Below, one piece after another: positions 7,343 through 26,187 of a DNA stretch of 31,693 nt. Below the pieces are notes generated by a model. It did no database searches. It had not been told where the DNA came from and saw only the letters and a list, made by a program, of their open reading frames with translations. How positions within the stretch are numbered: position 1 is the first letter of the stretch; each line of letters begins with the position of its first letter. This stretch comes from a virus: IMG/VR virus record IMGVR_UViG_3300037862_000019, positions 1 to 31,693 of that record, one strand, 5' to 3'. The position numbers and the translations under genes were made by a program.

Positions 7343-10087
7343 TCACGCTAGACCGCGCAGGTTCCGTCTGATCGGTTCGTTCTTGGTTGCACTCTCACCA
7401 CGGGCTGTTGGTGCGAAGACAGCCACAAGGCCAGCAGCATCGCTGTTGCTAACCAGAACCCCGTTGGCGAAATAACAGTGGTGATGGTTAACAGTCAGAT
7501 CGTAAACTGGCTTCTCGCTGCCATTCCGACTTATAGCGACAACTCTTGCCGCCCCGCTGAGAAACGTAAAAGCCGCGCTTAGGCCAGAACCAAAACTTGG
7601 TGCCGCCATACTCTCTGAAAAAGCGGTCCTATACCCCGCAGCGTTTGCGTTCTCCAACTTCAGACATGACACATCCTCATTTGTGATTATCATGTCACCA
7701 TACCCGATTGCATCTGCAACAAAAACGCCTTCAGTCGTAAATACTTTATGCTCTGGCGTCATTTCTAATTTGCGCCCGTCATCAAGCGTTATCTGCACTG
7801 TTTCGCAAGCTGTCTTTACCATGCCAGACCATTCAACCAATGCATATCCGGCAGGCGTTAGAACGAAGTCACCAGCCATCACATCCTTGATCTGCACCGC
7901 CCCACGGCTGGTAGAAACAATGGCGTCACCGGTTAAACACGCGTGACTAGCCCAGTCGTGATCTGGCCCCAAGCCAATCTCGCGCTTGTCGTCCCATTTC
8001 TCGTGATACCATGACAGCGCCTCACGCCCGGCAACCGTTGCGTCCTCGTTGAACCGACACTGCGGGAACATGGACCGCAGCGCGTAGATTCGCTGGACGG
8101 CAGCGCCCTTGCCTTGGTTCGGCACCACATACGTTGCGAACCCAGCCTCTCGCAGAAACTTCTCCGGCGTTACGCTGTAAACGTTGTCGTGCTTAACCCC
8201 ATCGTGCGGCAGAACGCAGGTCGCATCAGCATAGTTGTTTTCACGCAGCCAATTGACGTGCGCCTCGAATGGCTGGCCGACAGCCTCGTAGTAATCCAGC
8301 CAGCGGATCTCCTCACCGACATACTGCACGATCCACATTGCCGTGGCATCCGCTGACGATGATGTTGAGCCAATGTCCCAGACCGCATAGACCTTGTTCA
8401 TGCCGTGCTTGTTGTAGAACCCGATCCGGTTTTCCTTGCGCGCCACATCCAGCAGATCGGCATAATATGCCCCCTTCAACGCCCGCAGATATGCGCCTTC
8501 CCAGACGTGATCGTAGACCGCCTTGTCGAGCGTCTTTTCCTGCTGTTCACGCAGCGCCTTTAGGCCATCGGGGAAATATGGGTTGTCGCGCCAGTTGATC
8601 TCCGCTGAGAACAGGCCCGGCGGATTGTCTTGGCGGAAACGCCTGTCAACCGGGCTGCGTTCCGTCTTTGGATTCCACAGCGCCCAAATCTCGGAATTTG
8701 GCTGGCGAAACACCGTGGCCTCAAGAGCGAGCCATGACCCTTCTGGAATGTCCTCAGCTTCCTCGACAATGGTTAGATCAATCTTGGCCAGCGACTTGAT
8801 GGATTGTTCGTTCCTGCGCAGACCCCGAAAGATAAACTCCGTCCCATTCGCGCCTCGGATGTAATCCACGCCGACATCGTAGTGCGCCTCAAGCCACGGG
8901 TGCGCCTCGATAGCCGCCTTGATCTCGGCGTGCATGGATTGCTTGATGCTGGCTTGAAACTCTCGGACGCACAAGATCCGCAATGGCTCTGCGTAGCCCC
9001 ACACAGCGGCCATAAGAGACGCACTGAACGACTTGCCAGAATTATGGTTTACGATGCCGTTGGATAAATAATTGTTTGTCCCAAATACGTGCAAGTCCCA
9101 GTATTTAAGGCGGCTGTGCTTGCGGATGCTCTCCACCTTTGATACCTTAAAGTCACCACAACCATGAAAGGCATCAAAAGATGGAAAGCTATTCCGAACG
9201 TCGCGCCCAAAAATGCCGTGAAGCATTTTCGGGATTTCAGCCTGATTTCTCAAGCTGCCGAGACCCAGAACTGGCGCGAACGATACTTGATCTTGCACGC
9301 GAAGGGAAGACGTCTGCCCAGATAGCACAGGTGGCAGGCAAAACACCAAAGGCAATTCAGAAATTCTTTCGCCGATACGATTTCCCCAACCTGCACAACA
9401 TTGAAGTGCGGAGGATGCAAGAGCAGCCAATGTGGAACGGCGGCGAGAAGCTGATGAAGGGTTACATCTATCGGCGCGTCCCAGATCACCCGAATGGGAC
9501 AAAACATGGCAACTATGTCGCCGTGCATCGCTTGGTGATGGAGCGAAAACTAGGTAGGTATCTTCTTCCGACCGAAGTTGTGGATCACATTGACGGCAAC
9601 ATTCAGAACAATCACCCTGACAATTTGCGTGTGTTTTCCAGCAATGCGGAGCATCTTCGGGAAACCCTGAAGGGAAAGCGCCCAAATTGGAGCGCCGCCG
9701 GAAAACGTCAAATTTCTGACGGGAAGAAAGAATACTGGATCCAATGGCGAGAGAACAAAGCTCACGCCATCCGTCAGGAGTAAGAAATTTGTGCTGGTCG
9801 GTGGCGACAATGCTACGGCCATTGTCCAGCGCGACTTCAAACAAGTCCTCCTCAGTAAACTCCGTAGCTGGCGTCGCTTGGGAAACAACTATTTTCCCTT
9901 CAGACCACGAGTAAACACTGCCGCCCTTAAATTCTGAAACCTTCACTTGACCAGACGGCGTGTCAATCAATGCGTCTGGATGCAGACACCCTCGGCCACC
10001 GTAGATAGCCCGATACCGTGCAGCGCCCCTGTTTGGCGACAGGACAGGCACCAGCTTCGGCGGAAGTTTAATCGTCGCGTTTGTCAT
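7343..10087 (-). CDS. terL: Terminase large subunit interrupted by two inteins
   Basis: A 914-residue precursor. Removing two inteins (residues 34-349 and 717-881) leaves a 433-residue ATPase-nuclease, a normal size for the PBSX/Terminase_3-type packaging motor. The reconstituted Walker A loop reads GGRGSGKS. Walker B is LTIVEEAEDIPEG (about 438-450) and the coupling region is WALWNPKTERSP. The RNase H-like nuclease starts at VWDIGSTSSSADATA (D571) and ends with DHDWASHA joined to SDAAGLV, whose Asp (883) is the expected last metal ligand. Both inteins therefore sit inside catalytic motifs, so the motor should be inactive until spliced. The start overlaps the small subunit by 20 bp. The protein cuts and pumps phage DNA into the procapsid through the portal. 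Confidence 0.95.
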   Translation of the reverse strand: MTNATIKLPPKLVPVLSPNRGAARYRAIYGGRGCLHPDALIDTPSGQVKVSEFKGGSVYSWSEGKIVVSQATPATEFTEEDLFEVALDNGRSIVATDQHKFLTPDGWRELCSLAIGSSILSSRQKFDVFRRRSNLGAFPSGFPEDAPHCWKTHANCQGDCSECCRQCDPQLRSEEDTYLVFAPSPSDARRHSCHVLSHSGDLGRADRCNPSSASRRRSTLAALASSALQCCAGWGNRIGERISELPLVFCLPPVLSGQTSSLRVQDQVSFAPVLGLGSLRNQAEIPKMLHGIFGRDVRNSFPSFDAFHGCGDFKVSKVESIRKHSRLKYWDLHVFGTNNYLSNGIVNHNSGKSFSASLMAAVWGYAEPLRILCVREFQASIKQSMHAEIKAAIEAHPWLEAHYDVGVDYIRGANGTEFIFRGLRRNEQSIKSLAKIDLTIVEEAEDIPEGSWLALEATVFRQPNSEIWALWNPKTERSPVDRRFRQDNPPGLFSAEINWRDNPYFPDGLKALREQQEKTLDKAVYDHVWEGAYLRALKGAYYADLLDVARKENRIGFYNKHGMNKVYAVWDIGSTSSSADATAMWIVQYVGEEIRWLDYYEAVGQPFEAHVNWLRENNYADATCVLPHDGVKHDNVYSVTPEKFLREAGFATYVVPNQGKGAAVQRIYALRSMFPQCRFNEDATVAGREALSWYHEKWDDKREIGLGPDHDWASHACLTGDAIVSTSRGAVQIKDVMAGDFVLTPAGYALVEWSGMVKTACETVQITLDDGRKLEMTPEHKVFTTEGVFVADAIGYGDMIITNEDVSCLKLENANAAGYRTAFSESMAAPSFGSGLSAAFTFLSGAARVVAISRNGSEKPVYDLTVNHHHCYFANGVLVSNSDAAGLVAVFAPTARGESATKNEPIRRNLRGLA
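7445..7939 (-). other. Mini-intein 2 at the TerL nuclease active site
   Basis: The 165-residue intein (precursor residues 717-881) begins at Cys717 (CLTGDAIVSTSRGAVQIKDV, block A). Block B is LEMTPEHKVFTTEG (T777, H780). Block F is PVYDLTVNHHHCYFANG and block G is VLVSN, with Ser882 as the +1 residue. The penultimate residue is Ser instead of the usual His, a known tolerated variant that can slow Asn cyclisation. There is no endonuclease domain; the linker is about 65 residues. Splicing joins DHDWASHA to SDAAGLV, restoring the last acidic residue of the terminase nuclease site. Its sequence differs from intein 1, so it is an independent insertion and not a duplication. Confidence 0.9.
9041..9988 (-). 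other. Intein 1 in the TerL Walker A loop
   Basis: The 316-residue intein (precursor residues 34-349) starts at Cys34 (CLHPDALIDTPSGQVKVSEF, block A). Block B is IVATDQHKFLTPDGWREL, with the TxxH pattern at T96-H99. The C-terminal block F is YWDLHVFGTNNYLSNG and block G is IVNHN, followed by Ser350 as the +1 nucleophile. Splicing would join GGRG to SGKS. Only about 120 residues are recognisable splicing domain. The region between blocks B and F (about residues 123-303) matches no sense-strand LAGLIDADG or HNH motif and is instead the complement of an HNH gene on the + strand (9181-9783). Predicted standard Cys/Asn/Ser chemistry. Confidence 0.92.
9181..9783 (+). CDS. HNH homing endonuclease encoded antisense inside intein 1
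   Basis: A 200-residue protein on the strand opposite to terL. Residues 31-66 form a helix-turn-helix-like DNA-binding segment (REGKTSAQIAQVAGKTPKAI). Residues 94-160 are an HNH_3-type nuclease: GYIYRR, a tip-in segment NYVAVHRLVMERKLGRYLLP, and the ββα-metal core VVDHIDGN at 133-140 (D135, catalytic-type H136, N140), then NNHPDNL (N144, N148). An AAAGG ribosome site lies 9 nt before the ATG; no convincing promoter was seen. It occupies exactly the position where inteins usually carry their endonuclease, but in reverse. Its last 20 codons lie opposite the conserved region after intein block B. Probable role: cleaving an intein-less terL allele to drive homing. Confidence 0.88.
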   Translation: MESYSERRAQKCREAFSGFQPDFSSCRDPELARTILDLAREGKTSAQIAQVAGKTPKAIQKFFRRYDFPNLHNIEVRRMQEQPMWNGGEKLMKGYIYRRVPDHPNGTKHGNYVAVHRLVMERKLGRYLLPTEVVDHIDGNIQNNHPDNLRVFSSNAEHLRETLKGKRPNWSAAGKRQISDGKKEYWIQWRENKAHAIRQE

Positions 10088-12564: not shown

Positions 12565-12939
12565 CTAAAATGGAATTTCGTCGTCAGGCACATTGGATTG
12601 CGGTGGCTGGTCATAGCCGCCCTGCTCGGACCGTTCGCCGCCGCCACCCATGAACGTCAATTCATTGACCAGCAGTTGCAGCGAACCTTTGCCCTCGTAG
12701 ACGTTGACGCTGGGCTTGCCAGACAACGCCAGCTTGGAACCTTTGGTAATGTAGCTTTGCAGGCTGTCGGCCCGCTGACCAAAGATCGAACAGCTGACCC
12801 AAACGCTGTCGCGCTTGTTGCCGCCCTTGTCCTTGCCCTGATCTACGGCAATCGAAAAGCCGAGAACCGAGTCGCCGTTTTGTGTTTTGCGCAGAACCGC
12901 GTCTTTTCCGACGTTGCCTGCAATGGTCATGCTTAGCAT
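12565..12939 (-). CDS. ssb: Single-stranded DNA-binding protein
   Basis: A 124-residue SSB with an OB-fold: MTIAGNVGKDAVLRKT, VLGFSIAVDQ, DSVWVSCSIFGQRADSLQSY, ITKGSKLALSGKPSVNVYEG and LQLLVNELTFMGGG. A Gly/Gln-rich linker leads to the acidic tip DDEIPF, the standard protein-interaction tail. The ATG at 12937-12939 is preferred over the one three codons later because AAAGGAG lies 7-8 nt upstream. It sits just downstream of the replication genes and probably coats DNA during phage replication and ERF-mediated recombination. Confidence 0.93.
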   Translation of the reverse strand: MLSMTIAGNVGKDAVLRKTQNGDSVLGFSIAVDQGKDKGGNKRDSVWVSCSIFGQRADSLQSYITKGSKLALSGKPSVNVYEGKGSLQLLVNELTFMGGGGERSEQGGYDQPPQSNVPDDEIPF

Positions 12940-12997: not shown

Positions 12998-13555
12998 TTA
13001 TGCGTTCTCAAGCGTTGCGGCCGCATTATGCTTTTCCTTCAATGCATGCTCTATGCGCTGGGCATACTCTTGCCCCCCGACTTCTTTGGCTGCGAAGTAT
13101 AGCGCAGAACGATACTTGCGAATCTGATCAGTCGTCACCAATCCTTCGCGCAAAAGCTGGACCGCACCTCGGCCATAAATCCAGCCGTCGCCAACAGAGT
13201 CACCGGCAGCAATGCGGCGGGCAACAATCTGGATCGCGTCTTCGCTGGCAAAGGGCTTGCCTGTGATTTCAACCGCTTCGCGTTTAGCGGTTGCGTCAAG
13301 CGCCTTAATAAAATGTGCTGGCATCGGCCATGCGCGCTGCGTGTAAGTTTTGCGAATGTGCCGGAAAGCCGTTTCGATCCGGTCACGGAAATTTTCGGGG
13401 CTTGATGATGCTGAGATAAGACCGTTCACCTCCTCTGCTATCGCCGCTATTTCCCTCATGCATCCCTCGTCGTCCAGATGTGTCGGGCGCTGATACTGGC
13501 GCAGAAAGTCGGTGATAAGCATTGTGGCCGATGCTAGGCGTGTCTGGTAACTCAT
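12998..13555 (-). CDS. Putative replication accessory protein (helicase-loader-like position)
   Basis: A 185-residue protein starting MSYQTRLASATMLITDFLRQ. A helical N-terminus is followed by FRDRIETAFRHIRKTYTQRA and WPMPAHFIKALDATAK, a pattern seen in phage replication accessory proteins, and a helical C-terminus. A GGAGA ribosome site precedes the ATG. It immediately follows the replication initiator, the place where lambda-like phages put the helicase loader P; that role is inference only. Its first 173 bp overlap the 3' end of the initiator gene in another frame, which is unusually long. Confidence 0.7.
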   Translation of the reverse strand: MSYQTRLASATMLITDFLRQYQRPTHLDDEGCMREIAAIAEEVNGLISASSSPENFRDRIETAFRHIRKTYTQRAWPMPAHFIKALDATAKREAVEITGKPFASEDAIQIVARRIAAGDSVGDGWIYGRGAVQLLREGLVTTDQIRKYRSALYFAAKEVGGQEYAQRIEHALKEKHNAAATLENA

Positions 13556-14240
13556 TCATTTTCTCCGATAGGTGTTTCTGGATGTTGTCGTAAAAGTCTG
13601 TTGGGGAAGCTGCGGCCTCATCTAGCCATCGCTCGCCGTTAAGCCATGACGCAGGGTGCGCCGTGTATTGCTGATCTTGGCCCTGTCGCTGTCTGGCATA
13701 TGCGCCCATTGCGTCGATAATGGTTTGCGGGGTGACCTTTTTGGTTGCGGCTTTCCATGCCTTGACGGCCTGCCCCTTGCCAGCCTTTCGTGGAACAACT
13801 GACCAAAAGGCTTCAAACTCGTCATCTGCAATGATGGTTCTTTTATGGTTCTTTATGGTTAATGATGGTTCGGGTGCATCTCCTGCGGGGTTTATGACAT
13901 CCATATGCGGGGTTTGCGTATCCATATGCGGGGTTTCTGCATCCATCTGCGGGGGTGCATATCCTGCGGGGTGCATATCCTGCGGGGTTTTTACGGTGTA
14001 GAGGTTGCAATTCCTGCGCCCATTTCCGGTCTCTATGTGAAGCCAGCCTTGGTCCTCGAGGCGCCTAATAATGGTCTGAACGCCACGCTCCGACATGCAC
14101 GTCTTGCGGCAAATCCCAGCGATGCTGGGCCAGCATTCACCCTCGTTATTGGCGTAGTCTGCAATAGCCAGAAGCACAAACCTTTCGGCCTGCTTTTCAG
14201 GTCCGGCTTCCCAGACCCTTGACATTATTTTAATGCTCAA
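13383..14240 (-). CDS. Phage replication initiator with helix-turn-helix domain
   Basis: A 285-residue protein. I place the start at TTG 14238-14240: it gives the family-like opening MSIKIMSRVWEAGPEKQAER and lies 6 nt from an AAGGGG site; an internal ATG at 14225 is the alternative. Residues 20-75 form a winged helix-turn-helix (GECWPSIAGICRKTCMSERG, VQTIIRRLEDQGWLHIE), as in O-like initiators. The middle is Pro/Met/His-rich and encoded by DNA direct repeats. Residues about 145-200 (FEAFWSVVPRKAGKGQAVKA, YTAHPASWLNGERWLDE) match the C-terminal region of phage replication proteins. The last 57 residues lie in the overlap with the next gene and look atypical. Expected role: origin binding. Confidence 0.82.
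   Translation of the reverse strand: MSIKIMSRVWEAGPEKQAERFVLLAIADYANNEGECWPSIAGICRKTCMSERGVQTIIRRLEDQGWLHIETGNGRRNCNLYTVKTPQDMHPAGYAPPQMDAETPHMDTQTPHMDVINPAGDAPEPSLTIKNHKRTIIADDEFEAFWSVVPRKAGKGQAVKAWKAATKKVTPQTIIDAMGAYARQRQGQDQQYTAHPASWLNGERWLDEAAASPTDFYDNIQKHLSEKMNELPDTPSIGHNAYHRLSAPVSAPDTSGRRGMHEGNSGDSRGGERSYLSIIKPRKFP
13834..13870. repeat. Helically phased ATGGTT repeats beside the iterons
   Basis: Four copies of ATGGTT (13834, 13845, 13855, 13865) are spaced 11, 10 and 10 bp in a T-rich tract next to the iteron array. This resembles the AT-rich unwinding element that flanks iterons in phage origins. The phasing is directly visible; the function is inference. Confidence 0.5.
13876..13993. 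repeat. Iteron-like direct repeats, candidate replication origin
   Basis: Six copies of a TGCGGGG core lie inside the initiator gene, at 13884, 13906, 13927, 13948, 13965 and 13981 (spacings 22, 21, 21, 17, 16 bp). Two copies share the 17-mer ATCCATATGCGGGGTTT (13899-13915 and 13920-13936), a third is a close variant (13941-13956), and two copies share GCATATCCTGCGGGGT (13957-13972 and 13973-13988). Spacings near 21 bp put three sites on one face of the helix. In lambda the origin iterons also lie within the initiator gene O, so this is a good origin candidate. No strand polarity is implied. Confidence 0.7.
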
Positions 14241-14252
14241 GGGGTTCCCCTT
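14239..14252. promoter_or_regulatory. Perfect palindrome at the initiator start
   Basis: AAGGGGTTCCCCTT is a perfect 14-bp palindrome lying against the TTG start of the initiator gene. On the message it contains the AAGGGG ribosome site, so folding or protein binding could limit translation or transcription of the initiator. The rest of the 106-bp gap (14241-14346) shows nothing I can call. Confidence 0.35.
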
Positions 14253-14346
14253 ATGTTGGGGCAGGTATTGCGCAAGGGGGCCAGCCCGTGCTATCAATAA
14301 CCTGCGTTTGTTGCTACTCGCACTGTAGGCCCGCCAGCCTCAAAGA

Positions 14347-14478
14347 TCAAGCCTCGGCCATAGATTGGTCGGGGTTTTTCTTTTCCCCAGCACCTGCTAT
14401 GATACCCATGCGCTGGTCATGGGCGTAGCCGTGGTGTCCTCCTGCACCGTCTCGCGGCTTACTGGCGGGTTGAGGCAT
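14347..14478 (-). CDS. Short hypothetical protein
   Basis: A 43-residue frame starting MPQPASKPRDGAGGHHGYAH, Gly/His/Pro-rich and probably unstructured. A GGGGAGAC ribosome site lies about 5 nt upstream of the ATG, and the start overlaps the previous gene by 20 bp. GGHHGYAHDQRM resembles small phage proteins of unknown role. Support is moderate because the composition is low in complexity. Confidence 0.45.
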   Translation of the reverse strand: MPQPASKPRDGAGGHHGYAHDQRMGIIAGAGEKKNPDQSMAEA

Positions 14479-14689
14479 TGCTGTCTCCCCGCCGTTTCTT
14501 TGCCGCTTGGCTGAGACGATACCAGCCACCACGCATCAACACGTCGCCAGCGTCGTCCATCTCGATCAGGGTCCGCTGTACAAGATCCTGTGCAACTGGC
14601 GCACCGCCCAGCGCAGATAGATCGTCTGCAATGGTCTCGGCGCTGCCACCAGGCACAATCAACAACAGGGCTATGATCTGGTCACGCAT
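14459..14689 (-). CDS. Small winged-helix-like hypothetical protein
   Basis: A 76-residue protein, MRDQIIALLLIVPGGSAETI then ADDLSALGGAPVAQDLVQRT, LIEMDDAGDVLMRGGWYRLS. The helix-helix-helix-strand pattern ending in GGWYRLS resembles a winged helix, perhaps DNA-binding. The ATG at 14687-14689 overlaps the VRR-NUC stop by 8 bp, favouring this start. It lies in the leftward operon led by the repressor. Confidence 0.65.
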   Translation of the reverse strand: MRDQIIALLLIVPGGSAETIADDLSALGGAPVAQDLVQRTLIEMDDAGDVLMRGGWYRLSQAAKKRRGDSNASTRQ

Positions 14690-15029
14690 CCCACTCTCCC
14701 AGCTTCTCTTTGACATCATCAATGGATCGCACCACGGCCCAATGCCCACCAGCGGCGATTATAGCCGCACCCACGGCCTTCTGGGCGGGGCTGGCATATC
14801 CGCCCTCCGCTTTGATCTCGAAGCCGTAGAAGTGGCCCTGATTCAGCATCATCAGATCGGGAAAGCCGACGACCATTCCCATGAATTTCTGTTTGGCAAT
14901 GGCGCGGGCAATGGCCTGCCCCTTGACGTCTGTCTGGTTGGCAGAGTGATGCACCACGGCCTGCGGATATTGCAGGCGCAGGTAGCCGAGAATGGCTTGG
15001 TGGATCGGGCCTTCGAGATTGCGCCTCAC
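14682..15029 (-). CDS. VRR-NUC domain nuclease
   Basis: A 115-residue PD-(D/E)XK nuclease of the VRR-NUC family. Visible catalytic elements are E6, the PD pair at 57-58 (MVVGFPDLMML), E71-x-K73 (FYGFEIKAEGGYASPAQ) and Q83. VRR-NUC proteins in phages are thought to process branched or flap DNA. It overlaps the repressor stop (ATGA at 15026-15029), so the two are translated together. A role in replication or recombination intermediate cleavage is expected from the family, not shown here. Confidence 0.88.
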   Translation of the reverse strand: MRRNLEGPIHQAILGYLRLQYPQAVVHHSANQTDVKGQAIARAIAKQKFMGMVVGFPDLMMLNQGHFYGFEIKAEGGYASPAQKAVGAAIIAAGGHWAVVRSIDDVKEKLGEWDA

Positions 15030-15310
15030 TGCGGAACCCCGCGATGCTTGCCTTCAAATATGCGGCGACAAACAGCCTCGCGCACTGACGGCCTGTCCGT
15101 CACCAGATCGTCAACGGTGACGCCCAGCCCCTCGGCCAGACGAACAGCGGTCCAGATGCTTGGTGCCTGCACATGCCCAGATCGCAGCTGCGAATATGCA
15201 GGCTTGCCCATGTTGCAGCGCGCGGCCTGCTGGCCCAAGCTAACGCCTTTGGTTTTCCATGCGTCTGAGTATGCCCGCAGGTTGGCGGTGAAGATTGGTG
15301 TCGGTTCCAT
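15026..15310 (-). CDS. XRE-family transcription regulator (Cro/CI-like)
   Basis: A 94-residue protein with a lambda-repressor-type helix-turn-helix: ANLRAYSDAWKTKGVSLGQQ, AARCNMGKPAYSQLRSGHVQ, APSIWTAVRLAEGLGVTVDD. There is no C-terminal cleavage (LexA-like) domain, so it resembles a Cro or short repressor. An AGGAG site precedes the ATG. It is the first leftward gene beside the divergent control region, where an inverted repeat overlaps its candidate promoter, suggesting autoregulation and control of the rightward early operon. Confidence 0.87.
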   Translation of the reverse strand: MEPTPIFTANLRAYSDAWKTKGVSLGQQAARCNMGKPAYSQLRSGHVQAPSIWTAVRLAEGLGVTVDDLVTDRPSVREAVCRRIFEGKHRGVPQ

Positions 15311-15350
15311 GTCGTTCTCCTGTGTTGTGTTCGGCTATCGTAAAATAAGT

Positions 15351-15365
15351 TTGCGAAGTGTGCAA
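15351..15365. promoter_or_regulatory. Candidate repressor operator (TTGC-N7-GCAA)
   Basis: A 15-bp inverted repeat with half-sites TTGC and GCAA lies 41 bp from the regulator start and overlaps the -35 box of its likely promoter. Its size fits an XRE-dimer operator. A neighbouring CTTGCAAG at 15372-15379 shares the TTGC half-site. Confidence 0.45.
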
Positions 15366-15382
15366 TATGCGCTTGCAAGAAA

Positions 15383-15411
15383 GTTAGTAGAACGTTAGAC
15401 AGTTGTTAGAC
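15383..15411. repeat. Three GTTAG repeats at exact 11-bp spacing
   Basis: GTTAG occurs at 15383, 15394 and 15405; the last two extend to GTTAGAC. The constant 11-bp period puts the copies on one face of the DNA just upstream of the first early gene, suggesting a cooperative activator or repressor site. Confidence 0.55.
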
Positions 15412-15433
15412 GGAACGCAAACGGGAGCAAAAC

Positions 15434-15835
15434 ATGACAATTCAATGGGCAACGCCAAACCGCAAAGGTGGCGCATCAGCTAGCAATAAATCTGGCGTAT
15501 ACCTTGCATCATCAAGAGCGGGCGAAGGTCGGCCAGCACAACTTTCGATTGGCATACAGGCAGACGCAATGGAAGCAATGCGCTGGGTTGTTGGTGATCG
15601 GGTTATTCTGGGCCGTGACAGTGAAACAGGCATTTTTGTTTTGTGCCTTCACCCAGACGGTTTCAAGCTGACATCGCGCAGCACGGGCAAGCGCCAAGAT
15701 TCGGCAGGTCTTTGTATCGCTGCTAGCGTCAAAATGGTAACGCCATCTTTTATTGATAAAGATAAAACTCCAGCATCGGTCGCGCTTGCTAATTGCGAAC
15801 TGGACGGCGCACAGTTGCGCTTTGTCCTTTATTGA
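15434..15835 (+). CDS. First early gene, hypothetical protein
   Basis: A 133-residue protein starting MTIQWATPNRKGGASASNKS; the middle (AMEAMRWVVGDRVILGRDSE, TGIFVLCLHPDGFKLTSRST) has a beta pattern with an AbrB- or MazE-like feel (W.vGDrv.lg.d) but I cannot assign it. It is the first gene to the right of the control region, so it is likely among the earliest expressed products, possibly a host-takeover or regulatory protein. Ribosome site GGGAGC. Its leader GGAGCAAAACATGACA is repeated exactly before the next gene. Confidence 0.72.
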   Translation: MTIQWATPNRKGGASASNKSGVYLASSRAGEGRPAQLSIGIQADAMEAMRWVVGDRVILGRDSETGIFVLCLHPDGFKLTSRSTGKRQDSAGLCIAASVKMVTPSFIDKDKTPASVALANCELDGAQLRFVLY

Positions 15836-16089: not shown

Positions 16090-16746
16090 ATGAAAACCCT
16101 AATTGACCCCACCGCCGCAGATAAGATTGAAGCCGCGCATCCCCGCCTCCAGGCTGGCTGCTGGGGCGGCACACATACCGTTTGCATGATGTCTGCCCTT
16201 GTGAGAGGCGCGGGAGGTATCCAAGACTGCGTCACGGCTGGCTGGCCGGAATGGCTCGTTAAATTAAACGTGTGGATGTTTGACGTATATGTGGGCGCAG
16301 AATGCGAAGAAACAGCCCGCTACCAATTCGCCCTTGATGTAGCTTATGCGGTACAGGTGCCACGCGATTACGACAAAGCCCGCGACCTGTTTTTGATTGC
16401 GACCTTGGATCGCGCTAAAAAGCACGACACAGCCGGTTTATGCCAGCACGTTATTGGCTTGTTGCACCGCCGGATCGCGGGTCAGGATGTTGCGGATGCG
16501 ATGACAGCCACCTTTTCCGCCGACCATGCCGCCGCCGCTATCAATGCCGCCGCCTATTCCGATGCTTATGACGCCGCCTTTTCCGCCGCCGATTCCGATG
16601 CTTATGCCGCCGCCCATGCCGCCGGCCGTGCCGCCGCCGATTCCAATGCCGCCGCCCGTGCCGCCCTTCTCGCCGCCCGTGCCGCCCGTCTCGCCGTCAA
16701 TGTCGCGTCGCGCCAAAACCTGATCGCCGCGCTGAATGCGGCTTAA
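16090..16746 (+). CDS. Early protein with Ala-rich repeat C-terminus
   Basis: A 218-residue protein. Residues 1-145 look globular (GCWGGTHTVCMMSALVRGAG, YVGAECEETARYQFALDVAY, DYDKARDLFLIATLDRAKKH). Residues 146-205 are Ala-rich with spaced Tyr, Asp and Ser (NAAAYSDAYDAAFSAADSDA, YAAAHAAGRAAADSNAAARA), a periodic helical region encoded by GCCGCC-rich repeats; the stretch ATTCCGATGCTTATG occurs twice. Phage proteins with such AYAAA-type repeats are known but uncharacterised. The GGAGAAACGACA leader gives a good ribosome site. The repeats could vary in copy number between relatives. Confidence 0.72.
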   Translation: MKTLIDPTAADKIEAAHPRLQAGCWGGTHTVCMMSALVRGAGGIQDCVTAGWPEWLVKLNVWMFDVYVGAECEETARYQFALDVAYAVQVPRDYDKARDLFLIATLDRAKKHDTAGLCQHVIGLLHRRIAGQDVADAMTATFSADHAAAAINAAAYSDAYDAAFSAADSDAYAAAHAAGRAAADSNAAARAALLAARAARLAVNVASRQNLIAALNAA

Positions 16747-25212: not shown

Positions 25213-26187
25213 TTAAGACAAGAGAAACTTAGCAACGTCATCGACGCTACCCGTGGATCGCATTCGGCCTTCAGCGACCTTGCGTTGCTTCACCTTGCCC
25301 GAACTGGTTGGCTGCTTAACGCCCGGTTTTACCATAGGGCGCGCGCGGTCAACCTTCTGTTTGATGCCATCCTTTGCCGCCATCATCTGACGGTATTTCA
25401 TGGCGTCGTGCAGAACCCGAACCTGACGACTGTCAACTACCTGCGCAATCTCATCCGGCGCGAAGCCGTATTGGACACCAACGTCAATCATCGCCTTGCG
25501 AACCTGCGGACCCTTTTCGGGATCTGCAATCTCCGGCAATACTTGCGTCAGCTTGGCCATCTCCTGCTGGAGTGTATAGGCATGCGCTTGCTCTTGCATT
25601 TGTCGTTGGCGATTACTTACCGCCTCAAACTCCCCGACTTGACCCTGCCATGCTGCGACATCGTCGTCGTATTTCAGCTTGGCTTCCATGTATCCAATCG
25701 GATCTCTCTCAAAAAGATCGCGTCCGGGTGGCTTGGGCTGGGCGGGAATGCCGTCAGTTTCCAGTCGTTGGCGAAGCGTAGCAACTTGCTGTGCTTCCTG
25801 CTGCAACTGATTGTAAATTGCTTCGACCTGCTTACGGCCTTCGGCAACTTGACGCATCTGTTGCTGGATGTATTCCTGACCCGAATAGCCTCGGCGTAAC
25901 TCGTCTAGGGTCACCTGCTTTTCTTCGCCATTTACCTTTACGGCATAGAGCGATTGCGCTGGCTCCTCGTCGGTCTCCTCGGCGTCCTCTGCGTCGTCAT
26001 CCTCGTCGGTGTCATCGGCTTCGTCTGCCTCGTCCACCGTTTCGTCTGCTTCCTCGGCTTCCGCAACTTCCGCCTGATCGTCTTGATCGTCGGCTTCCAT
26101 CACTTCGTCCTGCTCGGCAGGTTCCTGATCAAAGATCAGATTGTCCGCAACATCTTCGATGCTGCCCGTTGCAGTCGTGTTATCCAC
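25213..26187 (-). CDS. Capsid scaffolding protein
   Basis: A 324-residue protein between portal and capsid genes. It starts at GTG (26185-26187) with GGGAGC upstream. Residues 25-78 are extremely acidic (EADETVDEADEADDTDEDDD), followed by a conserved VNGEEKQVTLDELRRGY motif, a long coiled coil with QQQMRQVAEGRKQVEAIYNQ, and a basic C-terminus (VKPGVKQPTSSGKVKQRKVA). This layout, acidic start, coiled coil and basic capsid-binding tail, is standard for scaffolds. It organises procapsid assembly and then leaves. Confidence 0.88.
   Translation of the reverse strand: MDNTTATGSIEDVADNLIFDQEPAEQDEVMEADDQDDQAEVAEAEEADETVDEADEADDTDEDDDAEDAEETDEEPAQSLYAVKVNGEEKQVTLDELRRGYSGQEYIQQQMRQVAEGRKQVEAIYNQLQQEAQQVATLRQRLETDGIPAQPKPPGRDLFERDPIGYMEAKLKYDDDVAAWQGQVGEFEAVSNRQRQMQEQAHAYTLQQEMAKLTQVLPEIADPEKGPQVRKAMIDVGVQYGFAPDEIAQVVDSRQVRVLHDAMKYRQMMAAKDGIKQKVDRARPMVKPGVKQPTSSGKVKQRKVAEGRMRSTGSVDDVAKFLLS

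Follow-up and report, generated by a model that had tools for sequence, protein, structure and literature searches.

A likely lambda-like replication origin inside a phage HTH_36 initiator gene, with variable initiator sites and a constant putative opening element

Described intragenic origins and the initiator of the window

Replication origins located inside the gene of their own initiator are already known from phages of the lambda/P22 O type and from RepA_N plasmids. In phage lambda (gene O) and P22 (gene 18), the origin is found midway along the initiator gene; the lambda iterons are inverted repeats in mid-O, O binds the single-stranded DNA of an AT-rich tract, and six iterons are found in Stx phages (PMC7466680). 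The locus described here shares with them the position within the gene, inverted-repeat iterons (also six) and an AT-rich tract on one side. It also resembles the RepA_N initiators (pSK41), in which a winged helix-turn-helix (wHTH) N-terminal domain binds boxes inside the rep gene and the origin DNA encodes a central linker, with a separate C-terminal domain (PMC5703833); RepA_N differs in being a plasmid system of low-GC Gram-positives. A third likeness is to TrfA of RK2, RepE of F and RctB, which combine double-stranded iterons with a separate unwinding-element motif, bound as a single strand by the same initiator. The origins of iteron plasmids and of RctB are, as far as is known, beside the initiator gene and not inside it. 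For TrfA and RepE, it is established that a repeated opening motif is captured as a single strand (PMC4081077), and a (G/A)ATCA motif captured in this way is reported in a review for RctB of Vibrio Chr2 (PMC10797057). These systems differ from ours in their initiator families and in opening repeats that are unlike in sequence or length (13-mers in RK2). In PLE RepA of Vibrio satellites, a DNA-binding domain similarly reads semi-palindromic iterons, and changes in the iteron sequence matter in conflicts; there are, however, three iterons of ~30 bp, and these are in noncoding DNA (PMC8263062).

The window, i.e. the whole stretch of DNA analysed in this study, corresponds to an IMG/VR virus record (31,693 bases), and contains a replication initiator gene (Table 1) whose TTG start was chosen because relatives begin at the same conserved MSIK. 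The protein matched the HTH_36 profile (PF13730; E 9e-15, 54.7 bits against a cut-off of 25) and phrog_270, phage replication initiation protein (E 9.6e-43), and by these matches is a member of the phage HTH_36/phrog_270 replication initiators. It consists of a wHTH, an iteron-encoded linker, a helical C-terminal domain and a disordered tail. The Pfam scan gave no match to PF04492 (Phage_rep_O) at E up to 1, the controls lambda O and P22 gp18 matching this family at E below 1e-35, and BLASTP detected no similarity to lambda O; membership in the lambda O family was ruled out by these two negatives. Matches to the RepA_N family and to the Rep_3 domain of iteron plasmids were likewise absent from the Pfam results at E up to 1.

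In the AF2 model, the N-terminal domain contained a helix at residues 40-47, the recognition helix at 51-64 and strands at 67-70 and 80-83; the Pro-rich linker had low confidence, and is probably disordered. VIA-align related the N-terminal domain to winged-helix proteins (Z 8-10), including the initiator N-terminal domains 4pql/4pt7 (Z ~8), which we take to be those of RepA_N; this placement was without a clear closest family, and a Z near 8 may merely reflect a common arrangement. Foldseek gave no match below E 0.001. The C-terminal helical domain is a candidate for interaction with a helicase or loader.

Table 1. Positions of the features at and around the initiator gene in the window.
Feature	Position	Strand	Remarks
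Replication initiator gene	14240-13383	-	285 aa; TTG start at 14240, stop at 13383
Winged-helix DNA-binding domain (residues 1-90)	13971-14240	-	AF2 block, pLDDT 83-98
Recognition helix (residues 51-64)	14049-14090	-	E51, G53, Q55 and T56 close to its start
Iteron array, six CCCCGCA cores (coding direction)	13876-13987	-	Inside the linker of the initiator gene
CCCCGCA cores, gene 5' to 3'	13981-13987, 13965-13971, 13948-13954, 13927-13933, 13906-13912, 13884-13890	-	
TGCGGGG cores, starts	13884, 13906, 13927, 13948, 13965, 13981	+	
Iteron 1 dyad, GCA-n5-TGC	13973-13983		From the sequence
Iteron 2 dyad, GCA-n5-TGC	13957-13967		From the sequence
Iteron 3 dyad, GCA-n6-TGC	13939-13950		6-bp spacer type; from the sequence
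Iteron 6 dyad, GCA-n5-TGC	13876-13886		Last; adjoins the second element; from the sequence
AT-rich, DUE-like stretch with the second element	13826-13875		38% GC against 55% for the window
Second element, four AACCAT copies	13834-13870	-	13865-13870, 13855-13860, 13845-13850, 13834-13839
C-terminal helical domain (residues 138-230)	13551-13829	-	AF2 pLDDT 90-96 at ~residues 141-210
Next gene, 185 aa	12998-13555	-	Weak phrog_8159 match only (E 1e-4)
SSB gene, downstream, same direction	12565-12939	-	PF00436 (E 4e-17); phrog_44

The disordered tail of the initiator and the next gene share 173 nt (13383-13555), read in different frames, and long overlaps at the same place were found in EBPR podovirus 2 (gp8/gp9) and Vibrio phage D65. 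This next gene possibly encodes a (putative) P-like loader; it had no functional match in Pfam or PHROG, and five near-identical relatives only. Among the genes scanned in the window, Erf, exonuclease, NinB and SSB genes were present, and none was recognised as a replicative helicase or loader. The large terminase gene (7343-10087, minus strand; 914 aa) carries an intein-type insertion, with matches to Intein_splicing (PF14890; E 3e-24) and Hint at ~residues 713-881.

Iterons, a second array and the origin reading

The preliminary description of this DNA had placed six TGCGGGG cores in the middle of the HTH initiator gene, and this was confirmed (13884-13987). The spacing that it gave, near 21 bp, holds for three of the steps and not for the other two: from gene 5' to 3', the cores are 16, 17, 21, 21 and 22 bp apart. 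As in the lambda-type architecture, the cores sit in mid-gene, all six of them in the linker; four open a full GCA-n5-TGC or GCA-n6-TGC dyad on the coding strand, with (A)CCCC before it, and two are half-sites with one good arm each. Two types of iteron alternate in the array: 11-bp dyads with a 5-bp spacer at steps of 16-17 bp, and 12-bp dyads with a 6-bp spacer, GCATATGGATGC-like, at steps of 21 bp. A mix of both types was also seen in four relatives (L008, L022, L025 and L026). Cores outside the array are scattered singles, one of them a lone seventh copy at 13726 within the C-terminal domain; there, an extra CCCCGCA is directly followed by AACCAT (13720-13732), and is kept in near-identical relatives.

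The preliminary description had overlooked a further element next to the iterons. It consists of four AACCAT copies at spacings of 10, 10 and 11 bp, in frames 1, 2, 0 and 2, i.e. all three (EPSLTIKNHKRTII), and lies 20 bp beyond the last core, still inside the initiator gene. The stretch that contains it corresponds to the AT-rich tract next to the iterons of lambda (38% GC against 55%), and the lowest 50-bp GC near it was matched or undercut by only ~69 of the 31,643 windows of this length (~lowest 0.2%). Neither lambda O nor P22 18 carries an AACCRT array, and we know of no AACCRTCA array reported for RepA_N plasmids.

Relatives were drawn from viral contigs and bacterial genomes (232 non-redundant). 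The place of the iterons after the HTH was often occupied by dyads with arms that differed between phages (GAAC-n3-GTTC, GACA-n3-TGTC, GCA-n5-TGC, GAA-n5-TTC and others), at spacings with peaks at 16-18 and 21-23 bp. In 89/232 relatives, the dyad finder used detected no dyad in three exact copies; this finder is insensitive to longer imperfect dyads, because its positive controls, lambda O and P22 18, yielded just two exact 4-mer dyads each. Loss of the repeats from relatives with the same initiator, named beforehand as evidence against an origin, was looked for, and the repeats were present. Near-identical phages retained both arrays, and in one of them (L005, 2267-3253) a 75-nt tandem duplication resulted in ten iterons; therefore, the copy number varies among close strains. 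In five relatives (L008, L009, L022, L024 and L027), the wHTH, iterons and AACC array were kept together with a C-terminal domain replaced by an unrelated one. Intragenic repeats followed by AACC-type units were found in EBPR podovirus 2, a Sphingopyxis phage, an Arthrobacter phage and a plasmid-borne homolog from Sulfitobacter, with weaker versions of the arrays in one Vibrio phage and one Acinetobacter phage. The Sulfitobacter homolog, on a 46-kb plasmid (L581, 1450-2169), adjoins a DnaB-like helicase gene; its repeats are GTCCCA/GGGAC, and its AACC units are spaced 11 and 10 bp. The initiator-origin module may thus also serve plasmids or plasmid prophages. Another relative of 35 kb (IMGVR_UViG_3300022832_000002; L579/L580) is circular, with a 113-bp terminal overlap, and its assembly ends happen to fall inside the iteron array.

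The second element was nearly invariant among these relatives, while the iterons varied. Its consensus is gAACC(A/G)TCA at 10 or 11 bp, and AACCRT was present at least once in 193/232 relatives and at least twice in 147/232. Its density was 5.4 per kb, compared with 0.34 for the remainder of the gene and 0.44 for the opposite strand, and AACCAT and AACCGT came first in an unbiased count of 6-mers recurring at 10/11 bp. The distance from the centre of the last dyad to the first AACC was 10-12 bp in 69 of ~100 cases, and the GC content of the element was ~12 percentage points below that of the gene. Some relatives without AACCRT had a variant, ACATCA/ACGTCA, at similar spacing. The element was found with all common iteron classes, was rarer with GAC arms (3/9), and also accompanied unrelated C-terminal domains.

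These observations argue for the array being, very likely, a functional replication origin. The preliminary view that the gene of the initiator contains the origin was supported by the lambda-like anatomy and by conservation among phages from many hosts, from which we infer that the origin fires here. As a reading of the locus as a whole, an intragenic origin of the lambda kind is likely, in which the initiator sites vary and the opening element stays constant. GC skew, suggested earlier as a check, had no turning point at the array; the skew of the complete 35-kb relative is nearly all of one sign, and is therefore uninformative about the origin.

It is unlikely that the sites are instead an intragenic operator through which the initiator autoregulates its own transcription, with the origin elsewhere. 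A protein on the DNA within the gene could block transcription, and the covariation described below indicates binding of the initiator to its own gene, binding by itself being no proof of replication. However, an operator leaves unexplained a strand-specific, AT-rich second element that is phased at 10-11 bp and held in fixed register; six to ten sites in mid-gene exceed what a roadblock needs; and the family is annotated as replication initiators. Scans for sigma-70 promoters (13300-15500, in which no promoter-like site was above chance) and for terminators near the array remained at chance level.

Covariation of iteron arms with the recognition helix

The bases of the dyad arms were associated with particular residues of the recognition helix. 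K56 went with GAAC arms (16/18 against 2/83; p 1.4e-14), and R56 mostly with GACA/GCCA arms (GAC/GCC in 12/21 against 0/80; p 2.5e-10). When residue 56 was neutral, D51 went with GAA (10:0) and E51 with GCA (29:0; p 1.6e-9), GCA being the expected arm for all remaining initiators. The window initiator (E51, Q55 and T56) has GCA arms, as these rules predict. Among 85 columns of the domain, excess mutual information with the arm bases was highest at positions 50, 51, 53 and 56.

For phylogenetically independent pairs, a tree was built without columns 51, 55 and 56. The pairs averaged 4.7:0 (K56), 1.9:0 (R56) and 3.5:0 (D51/E51) in the expected direction; such contrasts are few, and single tests do not reach 0.05. 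Pairs more than 60% identical with the same state at 51/56 had the same dyad in 141/142 cases, and the dyad differed in 147/158 pairs of this identity with a different state.

For loci fetched after the rules for K, R and other residues had been stated, 60/77 assignments were correct (permutation mean 22.5, maximum 36): K 8/9, R 9/18, D 12/13 and the rest 31/37, of which the D51 score is not out of sample because that rule was noticed later than the others. A last hold-out, in which no homolog exceeded 90% identity to those gathered before, gave 19/23, and the misses included a D51 in another clade (L483) and the sole K56 case (L558). The R56 rule was true in about half of the cases. In view of the misses in the hold-out, the arm code is a strong tendency and not a law; it performs best, as far as these sequences go, for K56 and for GCA/GAA.

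Covariation of this kind may also arise from common descent only, the linker and the HTH being inherited together; we regard this as quite improbable. The two are tightly linked (a few dozen codons apart), the D51 relatives are mostly one clade, and the counts of independent pairs are small. However, common descent would correlate the columns of the domain more evenly, whereas positions 50, 51, 53 and 56 of the helix stand out; a change at 51/56 between close relatives is accompanied by a change in their arms (147/158), and K56 with GAAC recurs in separate clades, with no independent pair in the opposite direction. The earlier prediction that the initiator binds the repeats is, accordingly, strongly supported by arms that covary with the recognition helix above other positions of the domain, and binding of the iterons by the initiator that their own gene encodes appears highly likely from this covariation.

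Coding constraint on the arrays and a model for origin opening

Since the core spacings are not all multiples of 3, the repeat is read in two frames, and the one DNA word CCCCGCA encodes NPAG, TPHM and PPQM. The TPHMD-type peptide repeats of the preliminary description were found in two units only, the others being HPAGYAP, PPQMD and NPAGDAP, because the cores stand in frames 1, 2, 1, 1, 1 and 2 or the units differ. Among relatives with at least three exact dyads, 134/143 used at least two reading frames. When the linker peptide was recoded synonymously 20,000 times with the phage's own codon use, CCCCGCA occurred 0.35 times on average and never six times as observed (0/20,000; P < 5e-5); the commonest 7-mer, whichever it was, had a mean of 2.06 copies, and none was six-fold. 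Under this coding comparison, the iteron array is conserved as DNA and not as peptide. Synonymous recoding gave P 1e-4 for the AACCAT array of the window; in the relatives, AACCRT copies numbered 435 against a mean of 96, and AACCRT spacings of 10/11 bp 169 against 4.

Other repeats of the window, at 16526-16696 and 25963-26034, contrast with the iterons in having periods of 9, 12, 18, 21, 27 or 36. Those at 16526-16696 are Pro-rich tandem repeats in a plus-strand ORF (16090-16746) without a PHROG match, and their periods, as multiples of 3, mark them as a protein-level repeat. That the iterons are likewise a protein feature, a Pro/Met/His-rich linker grown by slippage with the likeness in DNA as a by-product, would agree with the Pro-rich, low-confidence linker, the 75-nt duplication behind the ten iterons of L005 and these neighbouring repeats (periods mostly multiples of 3), but is highly improbable, and as the main explanation was refuted by the frame and recoding tests: spacings of 16, 17, 22, 10 and 11 do not divide by 3 and involve several frames, chance codon choice is excluded by synonymous recoding, and the arms track the recognition helix of the HTH.

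For an intragenic origin, we propose the following model. Each iteron dyad would be bound by winged-helix units of the initiator, whose residues 51 and 56 would read its arms; these units would assemble over the array in steps of 16-22 bp. The complex would then extend in register (10-12 bp from the centre of the last dyad to the first AACC) onto the AACC(A/G)TCA repeats. These may be a strand-specific opening element, of which the initiator captures a single strand, or a phased site bound as duplex; the bias of the array to one strand fits single-strand capture, and the period of 10-11 bp also fits a phased duplex site. The AT-rich stretch would be opened by the initiator complex, and the C-terminal domain, perhaps with the next gene, would bring the host helicase. 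Opening at the AACC(A/G)TCA repeats is modelled on the TrfA, RepE and RctB systems, and we lean slightly toward such a role for them.

Extended to the family, the proposal is that HTH_36 phage initiators have a two-part origin, in which fast-switching iterons, with a code at 51/56, stand in fixed helical register with a near-universal AACC(A/G)TCA array, an undescribed opening element that phages from several bacterial phyla would share, whatever the C-terminal domain of their initiators; we consider the chances of this general form to be evenly balanced. A search of the open-access literature, in which absence is weak evidence, found no description of an HTH_36 recognition code or an AACC(A/G)TCA array. 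On this proposal, the origin of a very large and mostly unannotated class of phages and prophages would be readable from sequence, by way of the HTH_36 gene, its dyads and arms predicted from two residues. The code would predict which phages and satellites could or could not cross-recognise origins, and the system would allow switches in specificity to be tested directly for a protein whose sites lie within the sequence that encodes it. The AACC(A/G)TCA array would be a testable candidate for DNA opening, a step still debated for iteron replicons.
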